A stretch of 64,000 nt of DNA, taken from the NCBI GenBank assembly GCA_013306675.1, contig JABLUY010000044.1:1-64000 (forward strand), in the 5' to 3' direction. This DNA is from Thraustochytrium sp. TN22 (lineage: Eukaryota > Sar > Bigyra > Thraustochytrida > Thraustochytriidae). This document shows positions 7,212-60,811 of this stretch, piece after piece. How positions within the stretch are numbered: the first letter of the stretch is position 1; the number at the start of each line of letters is the position of its first letter. A model generated the notes under the pieces. It had not been told where the DNA came from. It saw only the letters and a program-made list of their open reading frames with translations, and searched no databases. Both the position numbers and the translations under genes were made by a program.

Positions 7212-7244
<33 letters not shown>

Positions 7245-8696: not shown

Positions 8697-11600
8697 ATGG
8701 CGGAGCCGAGGTCGCTGTTGCCCGCGGCAGCGGCAGCGGCGACCGCGACCTCGCCCGAGGGCGCTTCGGCGTCCGGTGCCAGCCGCGACCCGCCGCCGCC
8801 GCGCAATGACGCCCTGCAGCCCCAGCTTACGCTGCGCAGGGGCAAGTCCACACTGCACCGGCAGGTGATCGGGTCGGCGGACGACCTGCCGAATGCAGGT
8901 GCGTCGCCGACGACGATCGCGGCGCCTCCGAGCGCCGCGCCACCACCATCGTCGCCACCAAGCGGGGGGACGCGGCCGGGAACGAGCGAGACGCCGGTCC
9001 GTGCAAGCTCAAGCCGTCAGCTTGGCCGCAGCATGTCGTCGAAACGCATCTTGCGCGCTGGCGCCTCGGTGCGCGAGCTCAAGCCACTCGTGCGCCGCGA
9101 GGCGAAGCTGACCATGACCAAGGCGGCCAAGCGGGCCCGCATCCGCGCGCCGAGCGGTGACGGGAGCTTGGCGGACTCGGACTTCGAGGCGACGCTGCGC
9201 TCCTACCTCGAGTCAGGGGACTTTCGGGCGCGCGTCATCCAGCTGGGGAGCTCGTACCGCGTGGGATTTTCGGAAACCTTCCTGAACCTTGTTGGCCAGG
9301 TCGCGGCGCCTATGAGCATTTTTTTGCTCCGTGCCAAGGCAAAGAGCAAGCTGAACTCCATCGAGGAGGACGAGGAGTTTAGCAACGTGAACAAGAACGA
9401 GGCCAAGGCGGTATGCCTTGGCACCATCTCGCAACGATCCTATGTAGCGGGCCAGGTCGCCGAGAGCCTGCCGGACGCGGGCGACGATGTGGACCCGGAA
9501 TACTTTCACGGCGACTGCTGCTTTGAGTACGACGACACCTTTCCCGGCCTGGTCGGAGAGCCGCTGCAGTGGGTTGGCTTGGCGCTGGTTAAGCGCGCCG
9601 AGTCCAAGCCGGTGAGTCTGTACCCGGCGGTGATGTTCTACGGCACGTTTAAGGATCCAGAGACTTCGCAGCAACGAAAGCGCATGCCGGGCAAGAAAAG
9701 GCAGGTGGCAGAGAAGCAGAGCGCCGCGGATGAGATGCATCGCAAGATGCGCGAAGCGACCACCTGGGAGCCCGGGCTCGGGCTTCGCGCGATTCGTAGG
9801 CTGCTGCGGTCGAAGCTGCGGTACTTTGACCGAGATGGAACCGGCACGATTGATTTCGAGGAGTTCAAGACGGCGATGGAGAACCTCGGGCTGTTCCTGA
9901 CGGAGACGCGCCTGCAGAAGCTCTTTCAGGCGTGCGACTTGGACCGGAGCGGGACCGTGGAACTAAACGAGCTGCCACTGGCGCTGCATATTAACGACCA
10001 GCTCCGCGTGCGCGAGCGAGTCTCGCCTCGCGACGCCTTCGAGCTCTTCGACTATGATGGATCTGGCGCCATCAATGAGCAGGAGTTCTTCGAGGTAGTG
10101 AACGTGCTCCCCCTCATGTCCATGACACGCGACAAGGCGAGCAAGGTTTTCGCCAAGTACGACAAGGACCGCTCGGGCGAAATTGAGTACGAGGAGTTCC
10201 GCACCATCTGGCTGTCGCTCTGCGACGTAGACCGCGAGCTCAGCGCGCGCGTCAAGGAGTCGCAAGAACAGGCGGAGGCGGCCCTGCGCGCCGAGCTCAA
10301 GGAGGACCCGGCGGCGCTTGATCACGCCCTGGTGAGCATGCAAAAGGCGCACTCAAGGGAGCTGCAGCGCGTGCTCGGACGACGACACGGTACCAAACGA
10401 CGCGATCTCGAGGCGCGCGTGCGCGCGGAGGAGGAGGTGGAGGCTTCCGAGTTTGCCGCTGCCAGGGAGCTCGCGTACAAGGATGCGCACGAGCTGCGAC
10501 TGGAACATGACCTCAAGCAGAAGGCGGAGAAGCAGCAGCGAAGGCGCGAAATGATGGCCGCGAAGGTGGCCATCAGCAAGGCGGAGCGTGAGCTGCGAAG
10601 GCAGAAGCAGCTGGAGATGAGCCAGCGAAGGCGCATCGAAGAGCGCGAGAAGGTCTTGCGTTCGCACCTCAACAAGGAGATCCGCTACCGTGAGGAGAAG
10701 GAGCGCGCTGCACGCCGCGCGGAGCGCGAGCTGCGACAACAGCAGGAGAAGGAGGCGCGTGCGCGTCGCGGCGACGACCGTCTCGACCTTCCCGGACAAG
10801 GCTTACGCGCCGTGCCAGAGGCGATCTATAAGGGCCCCGGCGCGCAGGACCGTCTCACGTACCTGGTGAGCATGGACCTCTCCGGGAATAAGATCGAGAG
10901 CCTCCCGTCGCAAGGTATGCTATTCTGGTGCGGGAACCTGCGCAAGCTGGACATTGCAGCAAACCGGCTTACTTCGTTGCCGGCGGAAATCGAGGCACTC
11001 GAGAGCTTGGAGATCTTGAGCGCCGGCCATAACCGTTTGCGCGCGCTGCCCAGCACGATAGGGGCACTCAAACGCCTCGTCGCGCTCAATCTCTCGGAGA
11101 ATGAGATTGAAGCGGTGCCACAGGAGATCGGCAGCCTTCATCTGCGCAGCCTGGTGCTCTACAAAAATGCCATCAAGGAGCTGCCGGCGACGCTGGGCGA
11201 GCTGGGCGCCACCTTGCAGTCGCTTGACGTCTCGCTTAACGCTCTACGCGACCTTCCCGAGGAGATCGGCTCGCTGGAGGCACTGGTGACGCTCGACGCC
11301 TCGTGGAACCGGCTGCAGAAGCTGCCGCCCACGCTGGGCAAGCTGGCGCAGCTGCAGACATTGGTGCTCTCTGGCAACGACCTGCGTCGGCTCCCGGACT
11401 CGCTGCAGGCGCTTCAGGCGCTGCAGGTCCTGGACCTCGGGCGCAACGACCTGATCGAGATTCCAGCCAGCGTGGTGGGCCTCGTCTCGCTGGTCCGCCT
11501 CGACGTGGCGCAGAATCGCATTGTGCGCGTCCCACGCGAGCTGGGCAACGTGCGCAATCTGCAGTATCTGGACTTCTCACGGAACAGCGTGCGCGAGTTG

Positions 11601-13022
11601 CCACCCGAGATTGGACGGCTGCGCCACCTCGTCGTCCTGGTGGCCCAGTCGAACGCGTTGGAGTCGCTGCCGGAGGAGATGGGCGCCATGCGCAGCCTGG
11701 AGCGCCTGGACCTAAGCCACAACCGACTTCGCGGGCGGCTACCGACGGCCACAGGCGCGCTGCGGCAGCTCGTGGAGCTAAATCTGGCGGAGAACCAGAT
11801 TGACACTCTGCCGTCCTCCATGGGCGCCCTGGTAAACCTCCGCATTCTCAACATGAACGGCAACGCGCTGAAGAGCCTTCCAAGCACGGTGGCATGCTGG
11901 CATTTGGAGCGGCTGTACCTCTCGCGGAACCGCGTCTCGGAGCTGCCGACCGCGTATGGCTACCTGGAGGACTCACTCGAGCTCCTGGACTTGAGCAGCA
12001 ACGTGATTGAGTATCTTCCTGCGGCGATCGCCTCACTGAGCAAGCTGCGGCACCTGGATGTCCAGCACAATCGACTGCGCGCCGTGCCGCCGGGGCTGGC
12101 CGACCTGATGCCGCAGCTGGAGACCTGGCGCGTCACACACAATCCTCTGGACGAGCTGCCGCCCAGGTTTGCGAATGAGGTTGCGGCTGGCGGGCCGGCG
12201 TCCGAGCTGCTGTGGTCCGGCTACTCGGACGGCCAGGTTGCGGACTGGGCGCTCGAGGTGCGCGACGTCTTCGACGCGTGCCGGAGCTGTATCGACGTGA
12301 GCCGCGCGCTGGCGCCCAACAGCGACCCTGCGCGGCAGTCGTTCTGGGAGTTCTCCAACGCCGTCAAGGCGGCTTTGGAGCCCGACGGCAGGTGGCGCGA
12401 GCAGCTCATGAAGCACGTCAACTTCTTCTTCTTCCGCGCTAAGGCGCTGGGCGAGGTCCCTCGCCTCGAAGCTCTCTACGGCACGGACGCCAGCGACCGC
12501 GCCGAGGCCATCGCGGCGCGCGAGCAGGAGCGTCAGCGACTCATGGAGGAAGTCAAGGACGCGCACATTGCGCGCGAGCTGCTGAGCCGCGAGGTCTACG
12601 CCGTGACCAAGCCCGACTTCCTGCGTGCGGAAACCAAGCTAGATCGCAACCTTGCGCGCATGCGGCGCGAGCAGGACGCGCGCCGCAAGGCGCAGATTGA
12701 AGAGACGCGACCCATTCACGAGCGCCAGGAGGCCATCTACATTGCCACAAAGCGCAGTCGCGAGGAGACGCGCAAGAAGGAGCTTGAGGAGTGGCTCGCT
12801 CACTTTCGTGAGCAGCACGAAGACTACATTCGCGAGCTCGTGCGCGCGGACGAGGAGGAGCAGGCCGAGCAGGAGCGCGAGCGACACGCCAGGCGCGCGG
12901 CCGTCGCCGCGGCAAAGGCAGCCACGAAACGCCCGGTCACGGACGGGCGGCGCAGGCCCTCTGTCGCTGCTAAAGAGGACTCCCGAGTGAGCAAGAGTGC
13001 TGGCGGCAGCACGATGAGTTGA
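8697..13022 (+). CDS. EF-hand, coiled-coil and leucine-rich-repeat protein
   Basis: ATG at 8697 (the frame also opens at an upstream GTG); 1441 aa, no intron needed. The order is: a low-complexity N-terminus rich in Ala, Pro and Ser; a unique region to about residue 350; four EF-hands with intact loops such as DRDGTGTIDFEE (about 375), DLDRSGTVELNE (413), DYDGSGAINEQE (451) and DKDRSGEIEYEE (488); a highly charged coiled coil (about 520-700); some 17-19 leucine-rich repeats of the short L-x-x-L-x-L-x-x-N-x-(L/I) type (about 720-1155); and a second charged coiled coil to the end. EF-hands imply Ca2+ binding and LRRs a protein-binding surface. The N-terminal unique region (about 180-330) is not recognised. 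The combination suggests a Ca2+-regulated scaffold, possibly cytoskeletal or ciliary, but function is inferred only. Confidence 0.92.
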   Translation: MAEPRSLLPAAAAAATATSPEGASASGASRDPPPPRNDALQPQLTLRRGKSTLHRQVIGSADDLPNAGASPTTIAAPPSAAPPPSSPPSGGTRPGTSETPVRASSSRQLGRSMSSKRILRAGASVRELKPLVRREAKLTMTKAAKRARIRAPSGDGSLADSDFEATLRSYLESGDFRARVIQLGSSYRVGFSETFLNLVGQVAAPMSIFLLRAKAKSKLNSIEEDEEFSNVNKNEAKAVCLGTISQRSYVAGQVAESLPDAGDDVDPEYFHGDCCFEYDDTFPGLVGEPLQWVGLALVKRAESKPVSLYPAVMFYGTFKDPETSQQRKRMPGKKRQVAEKQSAADEMHRKMREATTWEPGLGLRAIRRLLRSKLRYFDRDGTGTIDFEEFKTAMENLGLFLTETRLQKLFQACDLDRSGTVELNELPLALHINDQLRVRERVSPRDAFELFDYDGSGAINEQEFFEVVNVLPLMSMTRDKASKVFAKYDKDRSGEIEYEEFRTIWLSLCDVDRELSARVKESQEQAEAALRAELKEDPAALDHALVSMQKAHSRELQRVLGRRHGTKRRDLEARVRAEEEVEASEFAAARELAYKDAHELRLEHDLKQKAEKQQRRREMMAAKVAISKAERELRRQKQLEMSQRRRIEEREKVLRSHLNKEIRYREEKERAARRAERELRQQQEKEARARRGDDRLDLPGQGLRAVPEAIYKGPGAQDRLTYLVSMDLSGNKIESLPSQGMLFWCGNLRKLDIAANRLTSLPAEIEALESLEILSAGHNRLRALPSTIGALKRLVALNLSENEIEAVPQEIGSLHLRSLVLYKNAIKELPATLGELGATLQSLDVSLNALRDLPEEIGSLEALVTLDASWNRLQKLPPTLGKLAQLQTLVLSGNDLRRLPDSLQALQALQVLDLGRNDLIEIPASVVGLVSLVRLDVAQNRIVRVPRELGNVRNLQYLDFSRNSVRELPPEIGRLRHLVVLVAQSNALESLPEEMGAMRSLERLDLSHNRLRGRLPTATGALRQLVELNLAENQIDTLPSSMGALVNLRILNMNGNALKSLPSTVACWHLERLYLSRNRVSELPTAYGYLEDSLELLDLSSNVIEYLPAAIASLSKLRHLDVQHNRLRAVPPGLADLMPQLETWRVTHNPLDELPPRFANEVAAGGPASELLWSGYSDGQVADWALEVRDVFDACRSCIDVSRALAPNSDPARQSFWEFSNAVKAALEPDGRWREQLMKHVNFFFFRAKALGEVPRLEALYGTDASDRAEAIAAREQERQRLMEEVKDAHIARELLSREVYAVTKPDFLRAETKLDRNLARMRREQDARRKAQIEETRPIHERQEAIYIATKRSREETRKKELEEWLAHFREQHEDYIRELVRADEEEQAEQERERHARRAAVAAAKAATKRPVTDGRRRPSVAAKEDSRVSKSAGGSTMS

Positions 13023-43470: not shown

Positions 43471-45757
<2,287 letters not shown>

Positions 45758-48700
45758 ATGGAGGGCGGCGGCTGGGCTGACGAGTCGCTAGACGAAGAGA
45801 TGCTGCTGGCATCGCGCGCTGACGAGGCCGAGGCCGAGGCTGAGGCCGCCGCATCGCAGTCGCCAGCCTCTGCTGCAGGCGACGAGGAGGAGCTGGGCAA
45901 GGGCGAGGAGCTCATGCAGCCGCCGCCTGAGGCCTTCCCGACGCCACTGCCGCCGCCGACGACGATGACGCCTGGAGACACGCTCTCGGTCGCCTCACAC
46001 GTCGCTACCAAGGGCAGCGTCGCCTCCTCACGGCCCGGCTCCGTCGCCGCTGGATACACCACCGAGGACGACCTTCCCGCAGGAGCGCCCACGCCGCCAC
46101 CAGGAGCGCTCACGCCACCGCCAGGAGCGCCCACGCCGCCACCCATGGACACGGTCTCCGTGTCTTCGCGCATGGCCACCAAGGGTAGCGTCATCTCCTC
46201 GCGCCCGGGCTCCATTATTGCGGACGACTCGGCGGACGACGGCCTCCCCATCTCGACGCCCTCGCCCTCGCTGCTCTCCGCAGCCGGCCCGCATGACACA
46301 GTCTCGGTCTCTTCTCGCAGGGCCTCTAGAGGCAGCGTTGCATCCTCGCGGCCCGGGTCCGTCGATGTCTGCGATGAGATGGCGACGACGACGGGGAGCG
46401 AACCGCCCGCCCCGCTAGCACCGCCCACGCTGCTCAGCGCGCCGCACCTGGGCTTGGGCATTCAGGACACCGCGTCGGTATCCTCGCATGTCGCCACCAA
46501 GGGCAGCCTCGCCTCGTCGCGCCCCGGATCTATCATCGCTGACGATGACGCCACCGAGGGCGACCGCGAAGGCAGTGTCGGAGGCTGCGATGAGGATGGC
46601 GAGTACGGCAGCTCCTACTCAGACGCTGGCGCTGGCGCTGGCGCTAGTCCGGCTTTTAATTCCCTCGTCGTTGACGCCGATCAGGGCCCGCCCCGCTCGC
46701 TCGAAGTGCTGTCCCAGGCCGCCACCAAGGCCACCTCGGACGCTGGTGATCTCGAGTCGCTCGACGATCAACCAGACGTCGGAGAGGCGTTCGTCGCCGA
46801 ACAGGACGTCAGCGCCCCGTTTCTCTTTCGCGCCTCGTCGCGCCAGGCCGACGGCTCCGCCTCGCTCGCCGAACAGGACGATGGCGCCTCGTCGCTCTTT
46901 CACACCTCGTCGCACCAGGCCGACGGCTCCGCCTCGCTCGCCGCCCACTCCGACTTCGCCGAGCCTGACGACTTGCCTCCAGAGGCTACCTCGCCCGACC
47001 CGCAGGCCTTCGCGCCCATGCCGCCCAGGACCCCTCCCCAGGTCTCGGGGGTCGACGTACGCGCGACCAGTGACGATGATTTCGAGCACGACGACGGCCG
47101 TGACCCGGAGCTCACCTCGCTCGGCGCATCGCATGACCTGCTCTTGGAGGGCGAGGACATGGAGGATGACCCGGAGACGTCCGCGGACCCGGAGGCCGCC
47201 GGCGGCCTGCCAGCGCCCGCCGCCCTGCCTCCATCCGACACAGATGCCGACATTCCGCCCGAGCTCTCCAGCCTGCCGTCGCCCATCGCACAGGTCCCGT
47301 CCAACGCGCAGGATCACCCGCCCGTGTCTGACGCGAGCCACTTCTTCCAGTACGAGGATGCGGGCGCCGAGGTCGCCGCCAACTCAACACACGAGACCCC
47401 CCTTGCGCCGGACGGCTTTGCGGACGCCGCGGCGGCTGCCGGCCCGCCCTTGGATGCGCAGCTCTCGGCGGATAGCATGCCTCCGCCTTCCGACGCCCAA
47501 CTTTCCGGGCCGCCACGAGACGCGTCGGGCTTCTCGTCCTCACCTGGCAGGGCCGCCAGGCTTCACGGCGCCTACGCGCCGACGCCTGGACTCTACTCCG
47601 CGTCCTCCGAAGCGCCTCTATCGCAAACCGCGCCAACTTCGCGTCCCCCGGCTGCATCAGGCCCGCCGCCGCCCTTGGCTTCGTCACCCAACCGTGTCGC
47701 CACGCTCCACGGTGCCTACCCTCCGACCCCTGGGCTCGTCCCGACCTCGAACGCGCCAACTTCCTACGGAACAGTGGGCTCGCCGCCCTCCGCTACGGCT
47801 CCGCCCGCCGCGGCGTCGAGCTCGCCGCCCAGCATCATGAGCCCGCCTGAGGTCGCTGACACCGGCGAGCCCGAGAAGCAGTACGACGTCGCTGCGGAGG
47901 TGGACTTGGGTGCTGGCGGCGGTGGTCCGTCCGAACCAACCAGCGTTCTCTTTGGGCAGTCTGATGTTTCGCCACAGGGCGGCCTCTTCGACTTTGCGCC
48001 GGGGCTCCAAGGCTCGCAAGAGCCCGCCGCCTCTGGCCTCTTCGAGGTTGCACACTCAGGTACCGCCAGCAGCCCCTTTGACGGTCCCGCGGAGGCCACG
48101 TCTGGGCCCTCGGGCGAGGCACAAGCAGGGGCTTGGGGCTCTCCAGGGACGCAGGACGCCGCAGCTGGCGCGCAGATTTCCGTGGACGCCGGGCACGAGC
48201 ACGGAAGCATCCCGTCGGAGACGCAGTCAGATGACGCCGCTGGCCTTTTTGGCGGTGCCAGCGGCGGGGACGAGCACATGTTTCCCACTGACCAGCAGCC
48301 AGCCTTTGGCGAAGTTCAAGTGGCAGGCGCTGAGTTTGTCTCCTATGAAGATCAGCAGGGTTCTCAAGAAGCGAGCAGCGCCGCCGAGCTCTTTGGAGGA
48401 GCAAGCGAGGATTCGGGCAAGGCGTTTGGTTTCCAAGGTCAGCAAGACGCGCAGGAGAATACCACTGATGCTGGGGCTGGGGCTGGTGCCGGTGACCTTG
48501 CTAGTGACCTGGGTGGTGGTATCCCGATGCAGACGCAGAGCGGCATGTTTGACCAGCAGCCTCCGGACGCTGACAACACTTTCGACATTCAGCAGGAGGA
48601 GAGCCAGGCGCTCGACCTCCAGAATGAAAGCAGCGCTGCCGCACTTTTTGAAGGACGTGCCGAGACCGGTGTTCCGCAGGATGATGATGCCTTTGGCGAG

Positions 48701-51700
48701 GCGCCGGCTGAGGTTCAAAGCACGAGCAACGAACTGCCGCTTCAGGTCCAGAGTGATGCATTTGACGTACCTCCTGCAGAGGGGTCCCACCCAGAGGATC
48801 ATGGGGATGACAATACCGCCGGGCTCTTTGGGAGAGCGTCTCCGGCGCTAACTGAGGGTCAAACCACGAGCAACGAACTGCCGCCTCAGATGCAGAGCGA
48901 AGCGTTCGACGTACCACCTGCGGAAGGAATCACCCCAGAGGATCACGGGGCCCGCGACAGCGCCGGGCTCTTCGGCAGCGCGTCTCCGGCGGCGGCTGAG
49001 GGCCAAACCACGAGCAACGAACTGCCGCCTCAGATGCAGAGCGAAGCGTTCGACGTGCCACCTGCGGAAGGAATCACCCCAGAGGATCACGGGGCCCGCG
49101 ACAGCGCCGGGCTCTTCGGCAGCGCGTCTCCGGCGGCGGCTGAGGGCCAAACCACGAGCAACGAACTGCCACCCCCTCAGGTGCAGAGCGATTCGTTTGA
49201 CGTACCCCCCGCAGAGGGGTCCGCTCCAGATGATCAGGGGGGCGCCGACACCACCGAGCTCTTCGGGAACGCATCTCCCTCGCAGGACGTTCTTACGCAC
49301 GATGACCAGGGTCAGGGTCCGGCTTTTGGCGATGGACAAAGCCCGAGTGGCCTTTTCGGTGGCGCTAGCACCGCAGAGGACGAGAACTGGCAGCAGCAGA
49401 CTAGCCTCGCGTCGCCGTCGCAGTCACCTACAGTGTCGCAGTCGCCTCCCGCAGTGCAGTCGCCGGATGTGTCGGGGTCGCCCGCCGCGTCGCAGTCACC
49501 TGTTCCAGCTCACAGTATCTTGCAGCACGAAGGTCGCGAGCAGCCGCAGCAGGAGCATCAGCAAGAAGAAGGAAAAGAGAGCGGCGTTCTCTTTGTGCAA
49601 ACCTCAGAGGAGGGACAGACGCATTGGCAGGGGGGCGAGGCGAACGAGCCATCTTCGGTGGCGTCTGCTGGCGGCTTGTTCGCGAGCCCGGTGGACCGCG
49701 TGCGCAACGAGGACAAGGCGCGGGCACCCGGGACGCCTGGGACGCCGCCCTCCGACGCTCTCTTTGGAGGCGCGGGCGGGCCAGAGCCATTTTCAAGCCG
49801 CTCGCCTGAGGAGGGCGGCGGCGACCTGTTTGGCTCGGGCTCGGGCTCGGGCTCCGGTGACGGCCTCTTTGACCGCAGCCCAACGAAGTCTCGGCCGCAG
49901 GATCAGTTTGGGTCGTCTTCTGATGCGGATCCGTTCTCTCAGCCGCCGCAACAGTACATGCAGGCGCCCGCGTACCAGCAGCCGCAACAGCAACCGCATT
50001 CCGGATACTACCAGGACTACCCTCTGCGGCGGCAGCAGCAGCAGCAGCAGCAACAGGATCAGCAGTACTACCAGCAGGAGCAGAGCGCGTACGACTCGTA
50101 TGGATACACCGCGGGCAGTGACGAGGGCGTTTCGCGGCGTGACTCGATCCAGTCCGTTCAGTCACTCGGATCAGGCACGTACTCACAGCACGGGGGGTCC
50201 ATGGACGCGAACACGTCCATGCACGGCGCGCTGCCACATCAAATGGCGCGCCGCGAGTCGAGCGCGTCGGCGCGGTCGCACATGAGCCAGCACATGGCTT
50301 TCCCGCAGCATAGCATGGGTCCTCCGCCACTGCAGCAGCTGCAACAGCAGCAGAACAACGACGACATGTATGGGAAGCATGGCTCGGACATGTACTCGCA
50401 GCCATCGAACGGGATGATCTCGCAAGATATGCAGCAGGGCGAGGAGGCGATGAGCTACGCGATGGATGCTGGGGCTTGGGACGGCGCAGGCGACTACGCA
50501 TCGCAGCAACAAATGGCGATGCAGGGCCAGCAGCAGGGCGAGGGCGCCCCGATGTCGCCGGGCAATGAGTTCAGTTTGGACTTCCAGCAACCGGACCCAG
50601 CAATGACGGAGGAGACAATGCAGGTGCCGCAACCGCCGCAGCCAGAGCTGCAGCCAGAGCTACTCGCGGGCACGGTAGTGGCACCACGGCGCATGAGCGT
50701 GTCGTCGAGCCACAGCGGCGTGGGCCCAAAGCCGCTGTCCATGCCGGATAACCCGGTGGTTGGCTTCGGCGATATTCATAGGCAGGATGGCCGGCGGCCA
50801 CACGCGGTCGCAACGTTTGGCTTTGGCGGCCGCCTCGTGACCATGTTCCCCGTGCGCCGGCGCAAGCTCGGTTCTTTCTCGGACCAAGGCGGCGCAGCGC
50901 GGCCGAGCGGCAGTGACCCAGCTGGCCCGCTCGAGAGCAAGCTGCGTCAGGGTCACGTGCAGCTCTTTAGCGTGGCGGACCTGGCCGGTTCTAGCCGCCA
51001 TGTCGACCGACAGCTCGCCTTTCCGGGCCCGCTCGTCTCGCCGGCACCCGGTTCGCCCCCGGTTAATCACGCCAAGGTGGCAGCCTTTTTGCAGGACGAG
51101 GTGCAGCGCCAGGCGGAGCGCGGAAGCACTGGCTTCGTGGGCAAGCTCCTATGGCAGGTGGTCCAGCTGTTCCTACGCGGCGAAGGCGACCTGCAGTCCA
51201 AGGAGGTGCTCCCGGAGCTGCTTGCCGTGCTTCGTGCCCCGAGTGGCGAAGACGCCAGTCAGGCGCCGACGCCAGCGCCGCCGTCGCCCACACCTTCGTC
51301 CTCGCCTTCGCCGAACGCGGCGGGTGAAGAGAGCGAGACGGGTGCGGCGGCGGCGGCTGCAGGGCAAGACTCGCTGTCTCGCGGTGAGCTGGCTACTCTT
51401 GCGAGCAGCAAGAGTGCCGGCTTCAAAGTGGGCAGCTCCCTCGGCGAGGAGGCGGCGCAAGCCGCCATGGCGGACATCGAGGCGATGCTCGAGGCCGGTG
51501 ACCGGGAGGGCGCTGTGGTGCGCGCCGTAGAGAGCGAGCTGTGGGCACAGGCACTCATCATCAGTAACTTCGTAAGCGTGGCGGCCTACCGGCGCGTCGT
51601 GGAGCGCTTCGTGCACGCGACGATGCCGCCGACCTCGCAGTCGCACGCGCTCTTCATGCTCTTCGCAGGTCTTGGCGAGAAGGTCCTTGAGACGCCCGTG

Positions 51701-53515
51701 GATGGCGACGGTACCGCGGCCGGCCCGTCGCTGCGCGAATCGTGGCGACGCACGCTGAGCGCCATCCTGGCGAACCGCACGCCCGGCGACACGGAGGTCA
51801 TCACTGCACTGGGCGACCGGCTGTGGTCGGAACTGGACGACGCGGTCGCCGCGCACGTGTGCTACCTTGCCGCGGGCGTCCCGCTGAACTCGACGAGCAA
51901 CTCGCGTATGATCCTGGTGGGTGGTAATCACCGCTCGTGCGAGTCGCACCGCGTCTTTGTGACGCCGGACACCATCGAGCGCACGGAGCTCTACCTGTTC
52001 GGGTTGACGCAGCGCAACATGAACTACCGTTTCGACGGCTTCCACCCATACCGACTCGTGTACGCCATGTGGCTGGCCGATTTGGGCGCAGTGCGTGAGG
52101 CCTATGCATGGGTGCGATCGATCCAGGAGGTCATCAAGGCGCGCTCGCCCAGCAAGCGGTCCTCTTCGTCCTCGAGCGTCGGCGGCAGCCCGCGCCGCTC
52201 AGGCCCGTTCCCGAACGCCTTCCAGCGACAACTCAAGATCTTCGCGGACCGCCTCATGATGTGCGAGGCTGCCAAGCTCGGCATCGCCGCGCCGGCACAG
52301 AGCAGCGAGGACTCGGGCTGGATTCCGCTGCGGCTTTCGTCTCTTTGGAAGCGCAACTCGGCGTCCAACGCGCCCAAGCTGGCCGCCCCGCCCTCCACTC
52401 CCCAACAACACCAGGGCCCCCAGCCCTCATCCGTGCCCCCCGCGCCTATGATGATGTTGGGGGCGCAGGCATCGCAGCCGCCGTCCCAAGGTCCGGATCA
52501 GTCGCAATCGTCTTCGCAGCCGCCCTCGCAGCCTTTCGGTCAGCACCAGAGGACCCGCGAGAACCACGGCTTTCCCGGTCCGAGCCAAGGCGACGCAGGC
52601 CCGCCGCCGCCTACGCCCATGCCCACACTGACGTCTGCGGAGCCGAGCCGGCCGCCCCTTCACCCCGGGACGGGCCGGCCAGGTGCGGACGACAGTGGCG
52701 GCGACGGCGGCGAGCGCTCGGGGACCAAGTCGCCGAGCAAGGCGGAGGACGAGGGCGGCGAGGACGACAAGTCCAAGGGTCAGCAGAATAGCAGCTGGGG
52801 CTTTCGGTCGCTGATTCAGAAGGTGATGCCCAAGAGCAACGTGAAGCGCGGCACCACCGGCAACAAACTGGACGCGTATTACGACGAGAAGCTCAAGCGC
52901 TGGGTCTTCCCTGGCGACGACCCGAACGCCGGACCGGCGGCGCCCGAGGCGCCCCCCAAAATGGAGGACTTGCGGCCGTCCAGCGCGCCGGCGAGCGGAG
53001 ACGCGCCGGGCGGTGGCGGCGGAGGCCCTGGCGGGCCTCCAGGAGGCCCGCCGCAGTACAATGCGGGTGCGGGCTTTCGACGAGGCAACACGCGGTCACG
53101 CTACGTGGACAGTTTCGCGCAGAGCGGCTACGCCGCGGACGCGCCGCGGCCCGACACGGCGCCGGGCAACAGCGGCGCGCCGCCTCCCATGTCGATGCTC
53201 ATGCCACCGGGCGCCATGGCGCCGCCCGGCGCCAACCCGATGATGCCCCCTCCCATGATGATGGGCGGCCCCATGAGGCCTCCTGGTGGCGCTGGTGGCG
53301 CTGGTGGTGGCGCCGGTTCTGGCGGCGCGCCGCCGGCATTCAAGGTGTTCAAGCCACCTCCTGTTCCGAGTTCTCCGGCTCCTGCGCCCGAGCCAGGCTC
53401 CGCCGAACGCGAGGGCGGTCTCGACAATGTGTCTCATCACGGCGCCGAGGGCGACGGCCACTCCGACATTGCCGGACCGGAGACGACGAGCCCACCGCCC
53501 GCCGCTGCTCACTAG
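45758..53515 (+). CDS. SEC16: Sec16, COPII coat assembly scaffold at ER exit sites
   Basis: ATG at 45758, 2585 aa, single exon. The first 1650 residues are low complexity: early (T/R)-x-GSVASSRPGS motifs repeated four or five times, then many GLFG-like units. A four-copy 48-aa repeat lies at about 985-1165 and a Gln-rich stretch near 1400-1460. The Sec16 central conserved domain follows, recognised by AVATFGFGGRLVTMFP (about 1683) and the helical ACE1 element (about 1750-2110; VGKLLWQVVQLFL, AVESELWAQALIIS, FHPYRLVYAMWLADLG). The Pro/Gly/Met-rich C-terminus, with NKLDAYYDEKLKRWVFPG, is the region that binds Sec23 in other species. Sec16 organises Sec13/31 and Sar1 at ER exit sites. The length is at the upper end for the family. 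Confidence 0.95.
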   Translation: MEGGGWADESLDEEMLLASRADEAEAEAEAAASQSPASAAGDEEELGKGEELMQPPPEAFPTPLPPPTTMTPGDTLSVASHVATKGSVASSRPGSVAAGYTTEDDLPAGAPTPPPGALTPPPGAPTPPPMDTVSVSSRMATKGSVISSRPGSIIADDSADDGLPISTPSPSLLSAAGPHDTVSVSSRRASRGSVASSRPGSVDVCDEMATTTGSEPPAPLAPPTLLSAPHLGLGIQDTASVSSHVATKGSLASSRPGSIIADDDATEGDREGSVGGCDEDGEYGSSYSDAGAGAGASPAFNSLVVDADQGPPRSLEVLSQAATKATSDAGDLESLDDQPDVGEAFVAEQDVSAPFLFRASSRQADGSASLAEQDDGASSLFHTSSHQADGSASLAAHSDFAEPDDLPPEATSPDPQAFAPMPPRTPPQVSGVDVRATSDDDFEHDDGRDPELTSLGASHDLLLEGEDMEDDPETSADPEAAGGLPAPAALPPSDTDADIPPELSSLPSPIAQVPSNAQDHPPVSDASHFFQYEDAGAEVAANSTHETPLAPDGFADAAAAAGPPLDAQLSADSMPPPSDAQLSGPPRDASGFSSSPGRAARLHGAYAPTPGLYSASSEAPLSQTAPTSRPPAASGPPPPLASSPNRVATLHGAYPPTPGLVPTSNAPTSYGTVGSPPSATAPPAAASSSPPSIMSPPEVADTGEPEKQYDVAAEVDLGAGGGGPSEPTSVLFGQSDVSPQGGLFDFAPGLQGSQEPAASGLFEVAHSGTASSPFDGPAEATSGPSGEAQAGAWGSPGTQDAAAGAQISVDAGHEHGSIPSETQSDDAAGLFGGASGGDEHMFPTDQQPAFGEVQVAGAEFVSYEDQQGSQEASSAAELFGGASEDSGKAFGFQGQQDAQENTTDAGAGAGAGDLASDLGGGIPMQTQSGMFDQQPPDADNTFDIQQEESQALDLQNESSAAALFEGRAETGVPQDDDAFGEAPAEVQSTSNELPLQVQSDAFDVPPAEGSHPEDHGDDNTAGLFGRASPALTEGQTTSNELPPQMQSEAFDVPPAEGITPEDHGARDSAGLFGSASPAAAEGQTTSNELPPQMQSEAFDVPPAEGITPEDHGARDSAGLFGSASPAAAEGQTTSNELPPPQVQSDSFDVPPAEGSAPDDQGGADTTELFGNASPSQDVLTHDDQGQGPAFGDGQSPSGLFGGASTAEDENWQQQTSLASPSQSPTVSQSPPAVQSPDVSGSPAASQSPVPAHSILQHEGREQPQQEHQQEEGKESGVLFVQTSEEGQTHWQGGEANEPSSVASAGGLFASPVDRVRNEDKARAPGTPGTPPSDALFGGAGGPEPFSSRSPEEGGGDLFGSGSGSGSGDGLFDRSPTKSRPQDQFGSSSDADPFSQPPQQYMQAPAYQQPQQQPHSGYYQDYPLRRQQQQQQQQDQQYYQQEQSAYDSYGYTAGSDEGVSRRDSIQSVQSLGSGTYSQHGGSMDANTSMHGALPHQMARRESSASARSHMSQHMAFPQHSMGPPPLQQLQQQQNNDDMYGKHGSDMYSQPSNGMISQDMQQGEEAMSYAMDAGAWDGAGDYASQQQMAMQGQQQGEGAPMSPGNEFSLDFQQPDPAMTEETMQVPQPPQPELQPELLAGTVVAPRRMSVSSSHSGVGPKPLSMPDNPVVGFGDIHRQDGRRPHAVATFGFGGRLVTMFPVRRRKLGSFSDQGGAARPSGSDPAGPLESKLRQGHVQLFSVADLAGSSRHVDRQLAFPGPLVSPAPGSPPVNHAKVAAFLQDEVQRQAERGSTGFVGKLLWQVVQLFLRGEGDLQSKEVLPELLAVLRAPSGEDASQAPTPAPPSPTPSSSPSPNAAGEESETGAAAAAAGQDSLSRGELATLASSKSAGFKVGSSLGEEAAQAAMADIEAMLEAGDREGAVVRAVESELWAQALIISNFVSVAAYRRVVERFVHATMPPTSQSHALFMLFAGLGEKVLETPVDGDGTAAGPSLRESWRRTLSAILANRTPGDTEVITALGDRLWSELDDAVAAHVCYLAAGVPLNSTSNSRMILVGGNHRSCESHRVFVTPDTIERTELYLFGLTQRNMNYRFDGFHPYRLVYAMWLADLGAVREAYAWVRSIQEVIKARSPSKRSSSSSSVGGSPRRSGPFPNAFQRQLKIFADRLMMCEAAKLGIAAPAQSSEDSGWIPLRLSSLWKRNSASNAPKLAAPPSTPQQHQGPQPSSVPPAPMMMLGAQASQPPSQGPDQSQSSSQPPSQPFGQHQRTRENHGFPGPSQGDAGPPPPTPMPTLTSAEPSRPPLHPGTGRPGADDSGGDGGERSGTKSPSKAEDEGGEDDKSKGQQNSSWGFRSLIQKVMPKSNVKRGTTGNKLDAYYDEKLKRWVFPGDDPNAGPAAPEAPPKMEDLRPSSAPASGDAPGGGGGGPGGPPGGPPQYNAGAGFRRGNTRSRYVDSFAQSGYAADAPRPDTAPGNSGAPPPMSMLMPPGAMAPPGANPMMPPPMMMGGPMRPPGGAGGAGGGAGSGGAPPAFKVFKPPPVPSSPAPAPEPGSAEREGGLDNVSHHGAEGDGHSDIAGPETTSPPPAAAH
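48718..49270 (+). repeat. Four-copy 144-bp coding tandem repeat in SEC16
   Basis: Each unit encodes TTSNELPPQMQSEAFDVPPA plus EG-(I/S)-x-PEDHG and (A/T)(G/E)LFG-x-ASPA. Units two and three are almost identical at DNA level (about 48862-49005 and 49006-49149); units one and four are diverged. Recent unequal exchange or slippage is implied. Confidence 0.9.
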
Positions 53516-53982
53516 AGAGCCCGAGTCGTAGAAGAAGAGTAGCTAGCAAGAAGAATGCCAGAAGACGAATTCGTCCTTGGATGGCCTCTCGCGTGGAAGG
53601 CTGTTGCACGTGTACGCACGCAGTGCCACGCACACATGCGATGCTGCGCAAGTCACGATTGCGAGCCAGCGAGAGCGCGTGAGAGCACATTTGCCGTGAA
53701 GCGCGAGCTTAGCGAGCTTGGCGGCCACGTTGCAGTGGTGCTGCTCTGCAAGTACACGTGGATGTCTACATTAGAGGATTGAGACGCGTGCAGAGCGAAG
53801 ACCCGCTCACGGCGGCGGCGCAGCAGGCCAAACGGGGGGACGGACGCCTTGCTTGGCGGCGCAGCATGCAGACCAAAGCCCGAGCACGCACAGGTGCTGC
53901 GGCTCTGCGCCGGCGCGGTGGCCAAAGCGAGTCGCCCTGAGGTCCACTCCGTTCCGAGGTTGGCTGTCCTCAAGCGACAGCG
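53516..53982. other. Spacer from SEC16 to first YDF-DH gene
   Basis: 467 bp. From about 53545 it belongs to the duplicated 1.5-kb unit. It holds a 75-codon ORF (53555-53782) whose start codon is not kept in the second copy, so it is probably not a gene. Confidence 0.5.
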
Positions 53983-55084
53983 ATGAGGACTCGGACAACG
54001 AGGCCCGTGTTCGTGCCGGACGCAACGCTCGTGGAGGCGGCTCTAAGGACCACGTGGCATGCTGTTCAAGTGAAGCCCCTATCCGCCGTGCTGCATCTCC
54101 GCAGTCTGGTCATTGTTCTGTTCGCGACGGTGAGTTCGCAACAAGAAAAGGAGAACCATGTCTCCATGAGGCCCTTCGTTTACGTCAGTTCGCTCACTCA
54201 CTGGCTTGCTGACTCAGCGACGGGCTACGCTTGGTACGCTCTTTCACCTTACGACTCTCATGTTGTGCTTCGCTCTCATCTTTTTCGTGCACTGGGTCGC
54301 CCCGCTCAAACGGGTGGGAAACGGTGTTGCCGAGCCCCTCTACCTCTTCTCGCGTGTGATCACCGCAAAGCTCCTCTTTGACCAGAAAGTGCTTACTGAA
54401 ATGAGTGGCGCCGGTAGTTTGACAGGTCTGATCGCATCCCTGTACTTTTGGGAGGGAATTGCAGAGGCAACGCTCCTGGGCCTGTCGCTGAGCCGCACCA
54501 AGCCGTATAGGCACGAACAGCTCCTTGTCGATCGTCTGACTGTGGAGCCCGAGAGGGAACTCAGCTTCGAGCATACGCCGAAGACCTACGACTTCGCGGA
54601 TCATATCGGAACCACCTTTTGCTTCGGAAGCACCGTCCTCATCTTTTTCACCGTTTCGGTAAACTTCGTTCTCTCGCAATGGAAGCGCCGCTTCAGAGGC
54701 ACCCTATGGTGATTCTCGAGTGCAGGATCGTGCTCTGGGTGCCGGCAAATCTCGCGGGCATTTCGAGTTGATTTTGTTGCATTTTATTCCCATGGAGGTT
54801 TGCTCAGGTCATCATCTGGGTGATGATGATGGCTTGACCTTTGCCTTGCGAGGACGCCTCAAGCGAGCACTGAACTGACCGTGGCTTCAAACGCAGGCTC
54901 GTGCGCGGCTGCACGTTGCGGTCATGCCAGGAACTTTCTCCTACCGTGGCACGTATCGGCAAGCTCGAAGCGCGGATACGATCGCACGCGTCCTACACGC
55001 ACCAAGGCGATATTATCTTAGACGCCACCAGGCCGGTGAGCCAGAATGGGCTCATGGCGAGCTCATCTCGTCGTAAGTTGGGTG
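53545..55084. repeat. Tandem segmental duplication, unit 1
   Basis: About 1.54 kb from GCAAGAAGAA(T/C)GCCAGAAGA to TCGTCGTAAGTTGGGT. It is repeated directly downstream at about 55090-56618 with high identity over promoter, both exons, intron and 3' flank. Each unit contains one complete gene. Confidence 0.92.
53983..54712 (+). CDS. YDF-DH membrane protein, paralogue 1, two exons
   Basis: Exons 53983-54129 and 54218-54712, giving 213 aa. The 88-nt intron has a GTGAGT donor and a CTGACTCAG acceptor and lies in phase 0. Exon 1 ends with VLHLRSLVIVLFAT. Exon 2 starts RRATLGTLFHL and holds about four hydrophobic segments (LTTLMLCFALIFFVHWV, EPLYLFSRVITAKLLF, SLTGLIASLYFWEGIAEATL, STVLIFFTVSVNFVL). 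The family hallmarks are GLIASLYFWEGIAEA, the basic-rich KPYRHEQLL(V/L)DR loop, and YDFADHI before the last segment. No known family was recognised; it is a small polytopic membrane protein of unknown role. Three paralogues follow downstream on the same strand. Confidence 0.78.
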
Positions 55085-55508
55085 GTACCAGCAAGAAGAA
55101 CGCCAGAAGAAGAATTTGTCCTCGGATGGCCTCCCGCGTGGAAGGCTCTTGCACGTGCACACATGCGATCCTGCGCAAGTCACGATTGCGAGCCACCGAG
55201 AGCGCGTGAGAGCACATTTGCCGTGAAGCGCGAGCTTGGCGAGCTTGGCGGCCACGTTGCAGTGGTCGTGCTCTGCAAGTACACGTGGATGTCTACATTA
55301 GAAGTTTGAGACGCGTGCAGCGAGGACCCGCTCACGGCGGCGGCGCAGCAGGCCAAGCGGGGGGACGGACGCCTTGCTTGGCGGCGCAGCATGCAGACCA
55401 AAGCCCGAGCACGCACAGGTGCTGCGGCTCTGCGCCGGCGCGGTGGCCAAAGCGAGTCGCCGTGAGGTCCACCTCCGTTCCGACGTTGGCTGTCCTCAAG
55501 CGACAGCG
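54713..55508. other. Spacer between paralogues 1 and 2
   Basis: 796 bp, non-coding, made of the 3' flank of unit 1 and the promoter of unit 2. It has its counterpart 3' of paralogue 2. It includes a short palindromic ATCATC...GATGATGATGG stretch near 54808-54832. No gene is seen. Confidence 0.5.
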
Positions 55509-56618
55509 ATGAGGACTCGGACAGGGAGGCTCGTGACCGTGCCGGACGCAACGCTCGTGGAGGCGGCACTACGGACCACGTCGCATGCTGTTCAAGTGAA
55601 GCCCCTATCCGCCGTGCTGCATCTCCGCAGTCTGGTCATTGTTCTGTTCGTGACGGTGAGTTCGCAACAAGAAAAGGAGAACCATGTCTCCATAAGGCCC
55701 TTCGTTTACGTCAGTTCGCTCACTCACTGGCTTGCTGACTCAGCGACGGGCTACGCTTGGTACGCTCTTTCACCTTACGACTCTCATGTTGTGCTTCGCT
55801 CTCATCTTTTTCGTGCACTGGGTCGCCCCGCTCAAACGGGTGGGAAACGGTGTTGCCGAGCCCCTCTACCTCTTCTCGCGTGTGATCACCGCAAAGCTCC
55901 TCTTTGACCAGAAAGTGCTTACTGAAATGAGTGGCGCCGGTAGTTTGACAGGTCTGATCGCATCCCTGTACTTTTGGGAGGGAATTGCAGAGGCAATGCT
56001 CCTGGGCCTGTCGCTGAGCCGCACCAAGCCGTATAGGCACGAACAGCTCCTTGTCGATCGTCTGACTGTGGAGCCCGAGAGGGAACTCAGCTTCGAGCAT
56101 ACGCCGAAGACTTACGACTTCGCGGACCATATCGGAACCACCTTTTGCTTTGGATGTATCGGAAGCACCGTCCTCATCTTTTTCACCCTTTTGGTATTCT
56201 CCGTTCTCTCGCAATTAGAGCGTCGCTCCAGAGGCACCCTATGGTGATTCTCGAGTGCAGGATCGTGCTCTGGGTGTCGGCAAATCTCGCGGGCATTTCA
56301 AGTTGTTTTTGTTGCATTTTGTTCCCATGGAGGTGTGCTCGGGTCATCATCTGGGTGATGATGATGGCCTGGCCTTTGCCTTGCGAGGACGCCTCGAGCG
56401 AGCACTGAAGTAACCGTGGCTTCAAACGCAGGCTCGGGCGCGGCTGCACATTGCGGTCAAGCCAGGAACTTTCTCCTACCGTGGCACGTATCGCCAAGCT
56501 CGAAGCGCGGATACGATCGCACGCGTCCTGCACGCACCAAGGCGATATTATCTTAGACGCCACCAGGCCGGTGAGCCAGAATGGACTCATGGCGAGCTCA
56601 TCTCGTCGTAAGTTGGGT
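55090..56618. repeat. Tandem segmental duplication, unit 2
   Basis: Second copy of the 1.54-kb unit. Small differences include an 18-nt deletion in the upstream part and a 9-nt addition in exon 2 (extra Cys-Ile-Gly). Its end TCGTAAGTTGGGT (56618) marks the junction with unrelated sequence. Confidence 0.92.
55509..56247 (+). CDS. YDF-DH membrane protein, paralogue 2, two exons
   Basis: Exons 55509-55655 and 55744-56247, giving 216 aa, with an 88-nt phase-0 intron. It is almost identical to paralogue 1 up to the YDFADHI motif, but the last membrane segment and tail differ (FGCIGSTVLIFFTLLVFSVL). Most changes cluster in the last 35 residues. Intact splice sites and frame suggest both copies are expressed genes. 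Confidence 0.78.
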
Positions 56619-57100
56619 ACTATGTCGTAGGCCAACTTTCAAGGAGCCGAGCGAATTTGGCTTAGCGCTCGGACACGTTCAGGGTCTCCAGCACAAGGCC
56701 GTTCTCTGCGTCCCGACATTGCATTGCAGAATATGCGCGCCTTGCTGGCCACAACGGCCGCAACGAGCCTCCGACTGCCCTCGATTAGGCCCGGGCATCG
56801 CGCCGCTTTGTTGCGTGGTGACGATTGTGCTCTCCCCACGCGCAGCAGCGCATAACGCACTACAAGGCAGCAGAACCTGAAAGGCTTCGAGCGACGAGCG
56901 ACAGGCGAGCGACAGCGACAGCGAGCGACAGCGAGCGCGCGCGCGCGCGCGCACGCAGGCACGAGCGCTGGAGGTCCGGGCCGGCGTGGCCAAAGCGGGC
57001 CGGCGCGCGCGCGCGCGTGCGTGGATGAGGGCGTGCGCACACGTCGCCCACCCCGTCCTGCTTGGCTGCGTGGGCTTCTGCACTGCTCGGCAAGCGCGTG
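56619..57100. other. Spacer with GC dinucleotide runs
   Basis: About 480 bp after unit 2. It contains alternating (GC)n runs at about 56936-56953 and 57003-57021, sequence that favours Z-form DNA, with GCGACA repeats before the first. No gene is seen. Confidence 0.5.
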
Positions 57101-57818
57101 ATGTTCGAGGGCATGGTGCCCGTCGCGCGGGCGATGGAGTACGCCGCGATGCGTAGCCTTCGCTTCATCAAATACAAGCCCGTGACCGCAGTCATCCAAC
57201 AACGAAGCCTCCTCGTCGTTCTTCTGGTGTCGGTAAGCTGCCGGGGTGGTGGGTGTGCAGCGCCTGATGCCATTGCTCAACCTAGTTCACTGACCTGATT
57301 GGCTCGCTCGTGTGCTGACGCAGCGCCGAGTTGCAATTGGCACGATCTTCCATTTGGCGACCAATATGGTATTCGGCGCTCTGTTGGTTATCTTGGATAA
57401 AGTCGCTTTGCTCGTGTTGGAGAATGGAATGGGCGAGCTCATCTACGTGATTTCGCGCATGATCGCCGCAAGGCTCCTCTTCACGCAAGCAACACTGGCG
57501 AGCATGACCTCTGTCGGGACCCTGGCAGGCCTGATCGCGTCCCTGTACTTTTGGGAAGGAATTGCAGAAGCAGCTCTCCTCTGCCTCTCGCTCTCCCTGG
57601 TCCGCTTCAAACCGTTCCGGCACGAACAGCTTCTCCTCGATCGTCGCACCGGCAGGAACACACGCTCAGCACCCTACGATTTCTCGGACCACATCGGGAC
57701 TGCCCTTTGCTGGAGCTTTTTTGTGGCCACGATCTTCTTTTTTCTTGTCTTGGTTTCTTTCATGGGTGCTGGCCTCATTTTGAGCCCACACGCCTTCGAC
57801 GTGGCGCACCCCGACTGA
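57101..57818 (+). CDS. YDF-DH membrane protein, paralogue 3, two exons
   Basis: Exons 57101-57232 and 57324-57818, giving 208 aa. The 91-nt intron (GTAAGC...CTGACGCAG) is at the same position and phase as in paralogues 1 and 2. Exon 1 aligns without gaps over its last 39 residues (VPVARAMEYAAMRSLRFIKY; ending SLLVVLLVS). Exon 2 keeps GLIASLYFWEGIAEA, RFKPFRHEQLLLDRRTG and YDFSDHIG. The sequence is clearly diverged, so selection on these motifs is implied. The first ATG is a choice; a second in-frame ATG lies at 57113. Confidence 0.75.
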
Positions 57819-58836
57819 AACTGAGACAAGAGGTGGACCTCTCGAGAAGCTCCGCGTCCAGTGGCAAGTGCATGGCTGGTGTTCGGATAGCACGCTTCGC
57901 TCAACTCGGCCCGAGGCACCGATCGCACTCAAGTCATCAAGAAGGGAGAAGGGAACCGGAAAGCGTGGGTCCGCCAATACGCCCGCCCCTCGCGCGAAGC
58001 GAAGCTCGTGCAGGCGGGCGGGGACCGCAGGCTTGACGCAGGCTGCCCTGGCGCGCACCGAGAGCCGGCCCTCGCGCGGCCGGCAAGGGTCTGCAGCGTC
58101 ATGGGCGATCATACGGCCCTCGCTCGCTGACACTTGAGGGCAACTGTGACGGCACCGGCGCTCGCGTCGCTGTTCTCAGGAGCTTGCCCACTTTCTGTTC
58201 GACGTAACGAGATGTTTTTCGAGGCACACGACACACTCATCTTTGGTTGCGCCTCGATTCCCAGGGATTCTCATCGTGTTCGCAACCGCATGCATAGCCT
58301 AGTTTCGCTTGACCTGGCAAGTGAGCTCAGGCGCGCTCGTTGTTTGGGTCGACGCTCTTCTTCGTCCCGTTTCCCTTCAAGCTCGCAAGCCAGAGAAAGG
58401 GCAACAGTTCGACTCCCTCCTCCTGCACTCCACGGGACTCGCCTTTGTGTCGGCCGCCTGCGCTCAATCTCTATCAAGCTCATTCTTGCGAGGTGCGCTC
58501 ATCTGTGCCCCCGCGCCGAAGAGGCAACCTGACGATGACCTCGCGTGAACGCCAAGTACCAGTGGCCAGCACGCACGCCGTCCGAGCTGGCTGCTCGGCA
58601 CGTCGCGGTGCCACTGGCGGCTGCGCACGTGCCGCCAGCAGTCCGGGTCCCTTCTTGCTTCTCGTGCTCTCGCTCCCTCGCTCGCCGACCGAGCGCGGGC
58701 GGAGGGCGGCAGCGCTGCGGGCGCAGAGCCGCGGCGGACGCGAGCCTGGAAAGGCCAGCGAGCGCCGGCGCGGCCGAGCCGACGCCGCCTGCCACTGCAG
58801 GCTCAGGCGGCTCAGGCTCACGGGGTCGGGCGCACC
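57819..58836. other. Spacer between paralogues 3 and 4
   Basis: About 1 kb with no recognised gene. Open frames here show no family motif. It must contain the promoter of paralogue 4. Confidence 0.5.
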
Positions 58837-59498
58837 ATGGATCAGCTGCTCGTCGTGGGCGACATGGCGGAGGACCTGCTGGCGGACGCGCTGAGCTGGG
58901 TCGAGGTGCTGAGCTTCGAGGCCGTCGTGTATACCCGGCAGTTCCTCATCTTGTGGGTTGTGCTGGTACGTGTCTTGATCGGACGAGCGAGCAGCGAGCG
59001 CGAAAGCTGACGCGAGCCAGCGGCGGCGCGCTGTGCATGCAGCGGGACATCAAGACCGCGATCTTGCTCTACGCGATGACGACGCTAATCTTTGGGATCG
59101 TGGCCACGGTTGCGCTCAGGATTGCGGAGCCGCGCGTTCAGAGACAGATTCTACGCGCCGACATTCTTTACTTTATGGTCCGGCTCGTGTGTGCGCTGGC
59201 GCTCTTCAAGACCGGCGTGCCGGGCATCATTACGCGCATCTACCTTGGCGAGGCAGTCAGCGAGGTCCTCGTGCTAAGCCTCCGTGAGGCCGGTCTCTTG
59301 GGTTCAAAGACGGACGAGAATCTACCGGACGTGTACGATTTCTGCGACCATGCCGAGGTGGCCCTTCGGGTCACCGAGCAGTTTGGGACGCTAGCAGTCG
59401 GCGCCATGCTCTTGGTGAAAGCCTTCGTCAGCCCGTACCTTTACGCCGCGTCGGCGCTAGGCCAGCAGTCCAGCACATCACGACGCACGTCTTTGTGA
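58837..59498 (+). CDS. YDF-DH membrane protein, paralogue 4, two exons
   Basis: Exons 58837-58965 and 59043-59498, giving 194 aa. ATG lies in strong context (GCACCATGG). The 77-nt intron (GTACGT...CATGCAG) is again in phase 0 at the family position. Exon 1 is MDQLLVVGDMAEDLLADALS then ...RQFLILWVVL. Exon 2 begins RDIKTAILLYAMTTLIFGIV and retains GIITRIYLGEAVSEVLVLSL, where the others have GLIASLYFWEGIAEA, and YDFCDHAEVALR. It lacks the RHEQLL loop and is the most diverged member. It is probably the oldest branch. Confidence 0.75.
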
Positions 59499-60047
59499 AC
59501 GTGGTCAATAAATCGCGGAGTGCCGCGAACGAGACGCTTGTCAGGCGGCAGCCTTTTCATTTTGCTCCAAAACATGGATGTTGCCGTATGAGCGGAGGCG
59601 CGTTTGATGATACGGCCGGCTGGAAGCGAGGTGAGGAGGTAGCCGTCTCTTCTCTCTGGCTAGCTCGCTCCTGCCAGAGGTAGTTTTACCTGAGCGAGGC
59701 TCGTCGCGACCACCTACAGGCAGGTGGGCAGGGAGCGGCGCTCCACGCAAGGGACCCACTTCACGAGACGGCCTCCAGCATGATTGCGCTCGTCTGCGCT
59801 CGCCTGACTACGTCTCATCGTCAGGTAGGTGTAGCCAGGAAGGTCGCAGCAAAGCCCGACGCTGACGAGGCTTGACGCGTGAGCCTTGCCAAACCGACGG
59901 TTGTCTCCTCGTGCCCAACCCGTGCCGTCTCCGCGCGAGACATGCCGCATGTCTTTTTCGCGGCGCGTGCCTTGCCTCGCGGCAGGTACAAGGCGCGTGG
60001 GTGGCACACCTTATTGGCGCAGAACATGAAATGAAGGGGTATTACGG
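59499..60047. other. Intergenic region
   Basis: 549 bp between the convergent paralogue 4 and the Asterix-like gene. No gene is seen. Confidence 0.45.
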
Positions 60048-60335
60048 TCAGCCGGCGTGGTTGACAAGCAGGCCGAGCAAGACGCAACCCAGCGTACAGA
60101 CCGTTTGCTTCGCATCGAAGTGAGCCGCCTTGATATTCACGAGCGAACTGAGGCAACAGATCACCGATGTCCATGCGAGCATTGGGCTGGCCAGCAGGTA
60201 CGCGAGCAGCCCGAGCATGAGCGCCACGAGCGAGAGATAGTCGGGCGGCAGCTGGTCCATGTCCGGTGGCGTCTCCTGCCACGGCCGCACCGCGGGGCCG
60301 CCGCGGCGCGGGTCGCCCTCGGTTTCCAGCACCAT
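60048..60335 (-). CDS. WDR83OS: Asterix-like ER membrane protein (PAT complex subunit family)
   Basis: ATG at 60335 (context GCGACATGG), 95 aa; human Asterix has 106. A longer frame to 60596 only adds a GGCGAC-encoded Gly/Asp tract. Matches to the family are DPRRG near the N-terminus, PPDYLSLVALMLGLL in place of the P-D-Y-M-x-L-x-G-M helix, LAWTSVICCLSSLVN and DAKQ before the last helix. Asterix and CCDC47 form the PAT complex, an intramembrane chaperone at the Sec61 translocon. The usual NP-x-PMTPPW tail is missing or lies in an unseen exon. Confidence 0.65.
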   Translation of the reverse strand: MVLETEGDPRRGGPAVRPWQETPPDMDQLPPDYLSLVALMLGLLAYLLASPMLAWTSVICCLSSLVNIKAAHFDAKQTVCTLGCVLLGLLVNHAG

Positions 60336-60811
60336 GTCGCTGCCCCCGTCGTTGCCGCCGTCGTCGCCGTCGCCGCCGCCGCCGCCTTCGCCGTCGCCGT
60401 CGCCGTCGCCGCAGCCACAGCCGCAGCGCAGAGGCGCGTCGGCTCGCTTGCTAGCTTGCTTGCCCCAAACGCGGCAAGGCCGCTCGACTTGGGCAAACTT
60501 GGCGGCAAACTCGTGACTTCGATCCTGCTGCATCATGCCTTGCCTGCTGGGGCCGGCCCGGGCACACACCGTCGAGCGGGAACGAGGGCACTGCACGCGT
60601 ACTCCGTCAATGACCGTTACGTTGCGTTATGTGGCGTTATGATGCCGCTGCGGTCACTCTGAACGTCGTCCGGTCGCTGCGTTGGGCTCGCCGCAGGACC
60701 GCTTCTTCCGCGCTAGCTCGCGCACGCCGTGCGTCGCCTGTTGCCGCTGCGCCTGGCTGGGTCGCCTGCTGCCGCCGCGCTAGGTGCGCCGCCTCTGCTC
60801 GCCGCGCCGCC
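60336..60811. promoter_or_regulatory. Divergent spacer, Asterix-like / ankyrin genes
   Basis: 476 bp head to head, with a GTCGCC hexamer run at about 60343-60415 close to the Asterix-like ATG. It must carry both promoters. No gene is seen. Confidence 0.5.

Follow-up and report, generated by a model that had tools for sequence, protein, structure and literature searches.

The DNA analyzed here is a 64,000-nucleotide stretch (the window; GC content 64.6%) at the start of contig JABLUY010000044.1 from Thraustochytrium sp. TN22. Its subject is a group of four consecutive genes, between positions 53,983 and 59,498, for small proteins with membrane-helix-like segments. The window is part of the contig designated C385 in a genome assembly of 37.9 Mb and 453 contigs; passages of PMC12258536 put thraustochytrid genomes at 30–60 Mb. 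Gene models were assembled from the listed open reading frames after the region 53000–60500 had been read.

Gene models and relationships within the array

All four genes lie on the plus strand (53983–54712, 55509–56247, 57101–57818 and 58837–59498), and each was modeled with two exons. Gene 1 begins with an open exon of 49 codons (53983–54129) that ends in phase 0 at the donor GTGAGT; a predicted intron of 88 nucleotides (54130–54217; GT...CTGACTCAG) separates it from exon 2, which runs through the stop codon (54218–54712). Gene 2 has its first exon at 55509–55655, a predicted intron of 88 nucleotides at 55656–55743 and a stop-containing second exon at 55744–56247. In gene 3 the exons at 57101–57232 and 57324–57818 flank a predicted 91-nucleotide intron (57233–57323; GT...CTGACGCAG), and in gene 4 those at 58837–58965 and 59043–59498 flank one of 77 nucleotides (58966–59042), the second exon again including the stop in both genes. 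Translation of the spliced models gives proteins of 213, 216, 208 and 194 amino acids for genes 1, 2, 3 and 4, with no internal stops; left unspliced, the frames run into a stop at codons 133, 133, 66 and 58, respectively. An earlier note on this DNA had proposed four same-strand, two-exon genes sharing intron position and phase 0, and the models bear this out: all four translate, and all four introns are GT...AG, in phase 0 and at the same place. Splicing at these sites is predicted from the frames and the splice signals.

Comparisons between the genes give some indication of where the intron borders lie. Among the tblastn matches listed, the similarity of gene 3 to genes 1 and 2 in exon 1 stops at the donor, at 57232 (expectation value, E, 0.002–0.006), and that in exon 2 is strong from the acceptor onward but overlaps the intron by some residues. 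Genes 1 and 2 have almost the same intron (1 mismatch in 88 positions), and this pair is therefore uninformative on the borders. The intron 3′ motif GCTGACNCAG occurs three times in the window, each time as the acceptor of gene 1, 2 or 3; at least three occurrences were also found in 17 of 100 shuffles, and the count alone is no proof. For the more relaxed pattern CTRACNYAG there are 8 occurrences against an expectation of 6.2.

On their sequences, genes 1–4 are homologous. Identity to gene 1 falls from 94% in gene 2 (200 of 213 aligned residues the same) to 47% in gene 3 and 26% in gene 4, so that the range from near-identical to remote described earlier was recovered. The pairwise scores of genes 1 and 3, 1 and 4, 2 and 4, and 3 and 4 were reached by none of 500 full shuffles and by none of 500 shuffles within 10-residue blocks, and tblastn of gene 3 against the second exon of gene 4 gave E 1.8e-5 in a search space consisting of the window alone.

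Genes 1 and 3 are under purifying selection. Over 193 codons the nonsynonymous divergence (dN) is 0.45 and the synonymous divergence (dS) 1.29, a dN/dS ratio of about 0.35, dN being the smaller in all 300 bootstraps. Taken by exon, dN and dS are 0.69 and 1.62 in exon 1, which contributes only 44 codons, and 0.39 and 1.21 in exon 2. This excess of dS in both exons is good evidence for translated genes. The comparison of genes 2 and 3 gave dN below dS in all 299 bootstraps for which the values were defined, one further bootstrap being undefined. Pairs that include gene 4 were not relied on for selection because their dS (1.46 to 1.99) is too saturated.

The recent duplication and the state of genes 1 and 2

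A duplicated unit of about 1.5 kb is present in two adjacent copies, each with one of the first two genes. Copy 1 (53545–55083, plus strand) contains gene 1 and copy 2 (55090–56618, plus strand) contains gene 2; the two are 94.4% identical by blastn, gaps included, and differ at 57 of 1519 gap-free columns. The duplicated unit starts 30 bases past the stop codon of a Sec16-like gene. That gene, immediately upstream of the array (45530–53515, plus strand), encodes Sec16 central and Sec23-binding domains in a single open frame 2661 codons long.

Differences between the two copies are unevenly spread. Between 54168 and 54471, 302 consecutive bases match copy 2 without exception, and a run this long was found in none of 5000 random placements. 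Amino-acid changes likewise cluster near both ends of the proteins, with residues 49–171 differing at one position. In our reading, this looks like local gene conversion of the gene 1/2 core. We prefer that explanation because selection on the protein alone would leave both the missing silent changes and the near-identical intron unexplained.

A rival reading sees decaying duplicates in genes 1 and 2, with only genes 3 and 4, together with a dispersed copy described below, being functional. The two proteins differ by 13 amino-acid changes over 213 aligned residues, and dN (0.036) is near dS (0.041); clear mutual constraint is not seen, so one of the two genes may be relaxed. This, and a GC content at third codon positions of only 0.67–0.71 in genes 1–3 (0.80 in gene 4 and 0.77–0.86 in six further genes or parts of genes in the window), counts against the family reading put forward below. 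However, both frames are open and splice sites are kept in both introns, and the single difference in residues 49–171 and the 302-base identity suggest gene conversion or constraint on the core. We consider decay of the pair unlikely.

The earlier proposal of repeated local duplication with the motifs retained is supported by the tandem duplication, the graded divergence and the low dN/dS (about 0.35) of genes 1 and 3. The family would have arisen through one tandem duplication that is recent and others that are old.

A probable fifth copy and searches for named relatives

The second exon of gene 4 has one further match in the genome, on the minus strand of contig C52 (65278–65580; E 0.036). 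Used as a query, this locus returns only gene 4 (E 0.014). Its gene model encodes 268 amino acids and has a 164-nucleotide intron at the same place and in the same phase as those of genes 1–4. The segment R-Q-I-V-I-L precedes the intron, where gene 4 has R-Q-F-L-I-L, and the protein contains LYVWEVGTEL and FQLCDH. Its score against gene 4 was reached by 0 of 1000 shuffles, full and block alike, and that against gene 3 by 0 of 1000 full and 1 of 1000 block shuffles.

Three points make the assignment of the C52 locus less secure. The start codon and splice sites of the model were chosen by visual inspection guided by the family, and the shared intron place is therefore partly circular. The score against gene 1 does not stand out, with 37 full and 91 block shuffles, of 1000 each, doing as well. 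And although the protein ranked first of 2002 sequences against a profile of genes 1–4 (the others being a PEX11 protein and 2000 block shuffles), its lead was only 1.4 bits. We accept the locus as a probable dispersed fifth copy because of its sequence, motifs and intron place taken together. The earlier description of the family as a four-gene array accordingly needs extending: the four neighboring homologous genes stand, and the C52 copy probably belongs with them. A hand-made consensus searched against the genome gave only the five loci described here at E ≤ 10; that search scores the best candidates only, so that five is a lower bound. Downstream of the C52 copy, on the minus strand (positions 4243–5110 of the extracted locus L023), its C-terminal coding part recurs in a local repeat array, with three tblastn matches of 38–41 residues at 79–80% identity and two weaker ones among the matches listed.

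The earlier note could match the proteins to no named family, and the searches gave the same result. None of the five proteins had a Pfam match and none of genes 1–4 an NCBIfam match, at a limit of E 10 under which the HMMER filters drop most matches above about 0.1. A profile of genes 1–4 found nothing among PDB sequences, and an alignment of genes 1, 3 and 4 with the C52 copy found one chance-level match there, to a soluble enzyme (E 1.4). For the same four proteins, five phage families each matched a single member, the best at E 0.017 to a family with no assigned function, which we took as chance. Viral or prokaryotic origin was considered and dropped: pattern matches numbered 2, 18 and 14 in three scans of viral contigs and 124 in one scan of prokaryote genomes, none of them confirmed as relatives, in short-peptide scans that can miss distant ones. 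Among the titles and abstract openings listed in literature searches, none describes the family, which says little, since text searches cannot find a sequence motif. The term orphan is used here relative to the Pfam, NCBIfam, PDB, phage, viral and prokaryote collections, and implies nothing firm about other thraustochytrids.

These negatives bear on the possibility that the genes are a highly diverged branch of a known membrane family, beyond the reach of profile searches with so few sequences but one that a deep alignment would place. The sample is five sequences, four of which come from a single array; Pfam scans of one protein at a time overlook remote members, and in protists rapidly evolving proteins often go undetected. 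On the other side stand the absence of Pfam matches for all five proteins and of PDB matches beyond the chance-level one that appeared with the fifth sequence. A structure model of gene 3 compared with solved structures gave eight matches at E ≤ 10, the best at E 4.8 and none at E ≤ 0.001, although the model is poor and the test correspondingly weak. We regard a hidden membership in a known family as less likely than not, though a serious rival.

One named family did surface in a pairwise comparison. The sole match of gene 3 outside the array (E 0.06) is a protein of 237 residues on contig C310 of the same genome, L011, which Pfam calls PEX11 (PF05648) at E 8.2e-17. The alignment score of 80 was reached by none of 1000 shuffles of either kind, and a PEX11-like peroxisomal membrane family would account for it. 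However, the match is not common to the other members: the scores of gene 1 (29), which is 47% identical to gene 3, of gene 4 (24) and of the C52 copy (38) against L011 are all at shuffle level. The gene 3 alignment spans residues 23–114 of L011 and pairs Y with Y and W with W, but places both invariant glutamates of gene 3 opposite Arg and Gln and leaves the D-H pair outside. The PEX11 profile itself matches none of the five proteins. L011 is also a single open frame in which, as far as it was examined, the shared intron was not seen. Kinship with PEX11 was rejected, and we regard it as highly improbable.

Shared residues, predicted topology and interpretation

An alignment of all five proteins, loose at this distance, has 15 invariant columns. 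Besides the start Met these are, in gene 1 numbering, V36, R40, T62, Y91, R95, A99, L102, Y125, E128, E132, L138, E149, D177 and H178. Y-x2-E-x3-E and a D-H pair before the last predicted helix are found in all five copies. The motif Y-D-F-(A/S/C)-D-H pointed out earlier is complete in genes 1–4 (YDFxDH), but the C52 copy reads FQLCDH at this point, and D-H alone is invariant across the five.

Hydropathy analysis gave five hydrophobic peaks in each of genes 1–3, six in gene 4 and four in the C52 copy. Membrane-helix-like segments are present in all four array genes, in agreement with the common polytopic layout noted before. Each protein is predicted to span the membrane four or five times, with one predicted helix carrying the invariant Y-x3-R, the next the invariant Y-x2-E-x3-E, and the D-H pair just before the last. 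The residues equivalent to R95, E128 and E132 are all within hydrophobic peaks in genes 1, 2 and 4, and the arginine and the two glutamates may form a polar cluster within the membrane. Other observations fit this picture less well. In gene 3, none of the hydrophobic peaks includes R89 (the equivalent of R95) and E122 is just outside one, and the first Glu of the C52 copy, E177, is also just outside a peak; for this reason the buried cluster is proposed rather than claimed. Structure models were all-helical but had low confidence: the mean predicted local distance difference test score (pLDDT) and predicted template modeling score (pTM) were 45.8 and 0.33 for a model from the four-protein alignment, and 60.7 and 0.32 for gene 3 alone. 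The helix arrangement in them is not trustworthy, and they confirm no topology.

Taken together, the results are best explained by a real, lineage-restricted and unnamed family of small multi-pass membrane proteins, probably with five genes in this genome, to which we assign a probability of about 0.6. Membrane topology, the buried cluster and any function are predictions from the protein sequences. Tentatively, and as no more than a weak guess, the likeliest use of the polar cluster would be to bind or pass a cation or proton, as in a small channel or transporter; a structural role, in which the charges would pair within an oligomer, is nearly as likely. A fuller version, in which these would be labyrinthulomycete-specific cation- or proton-conducting proteins unrelated to described channels and transporters, with a buried Arg and Glu-x3-Glu cluster and Asp-His at the membrane face, seems to us quite improbable.

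Two known kinds of system invite comparison. EXPERA-domain proteins such as EBP and TMEM97 are small membrane proteins of four to five helices with buried acidic residues, and resemble the present family in size, predicted helix number and, if the proposed cluster is buried, those acidic residues. The EXPERA domain has a family in Pfam, and it was absent among the Pfam matches of all five proteins. Protists also have lineage-specific tandem families of multi-pass proteins that show local duplication, graded divergence and a shared intron. All three features recur here, but the array is small and a dispersed copy is probable.

The family most likely resides in the nucleus of a labyrinthulomycete (thraustochytrid). 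Two rRNA searches came back empty, which means little, as the first lacked a control and the second had prokaryotic ones. A cox1 match led to the 22-kb mitochondrial contig of this assembly (C318; loci L020–L022), whose 14 stop-to-stop frames hold 22 TTA codons versus 221 TTG, with no TTA in cox1, cox2 or atp6. Six of the 22 precede the first Met and 14 fall within the last 16 codons of a frame. The remaining two are in nad5, one at codon 67, directly before a plausible start Met, and one at codon 727 of 795. Seventeen mitochondrial tRNAs are listed, the leucine ones being caa and tag. Passages of PMC5203790 and PMC9866869 give TTA as a stop in the mitochondrial code of Thraustochytrium (table 23), and the avoidance of TTA inside the genes of this contig is the pattern expected of that code. 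Elsewhere in the window are a BK-type (slowpoke-like) potassium channel with an RCK domain in a single long frame (3427–8259, minus strand) and one frame with leucine-rich repeats and EF hands (8619–13022, plus strand).

Orphan tandem families are common, and at present the genes described here amount to a further case of this kind in a protist, a membrane family whose value is mostly for annotation. Thraustochytrids are a culturable group of protists. Should the family turn out to be widespread in labyrinthulomycetes, its members would form a duplicated gene set with invariant, probably buried charges, whose function could be tested by deletion or point change.

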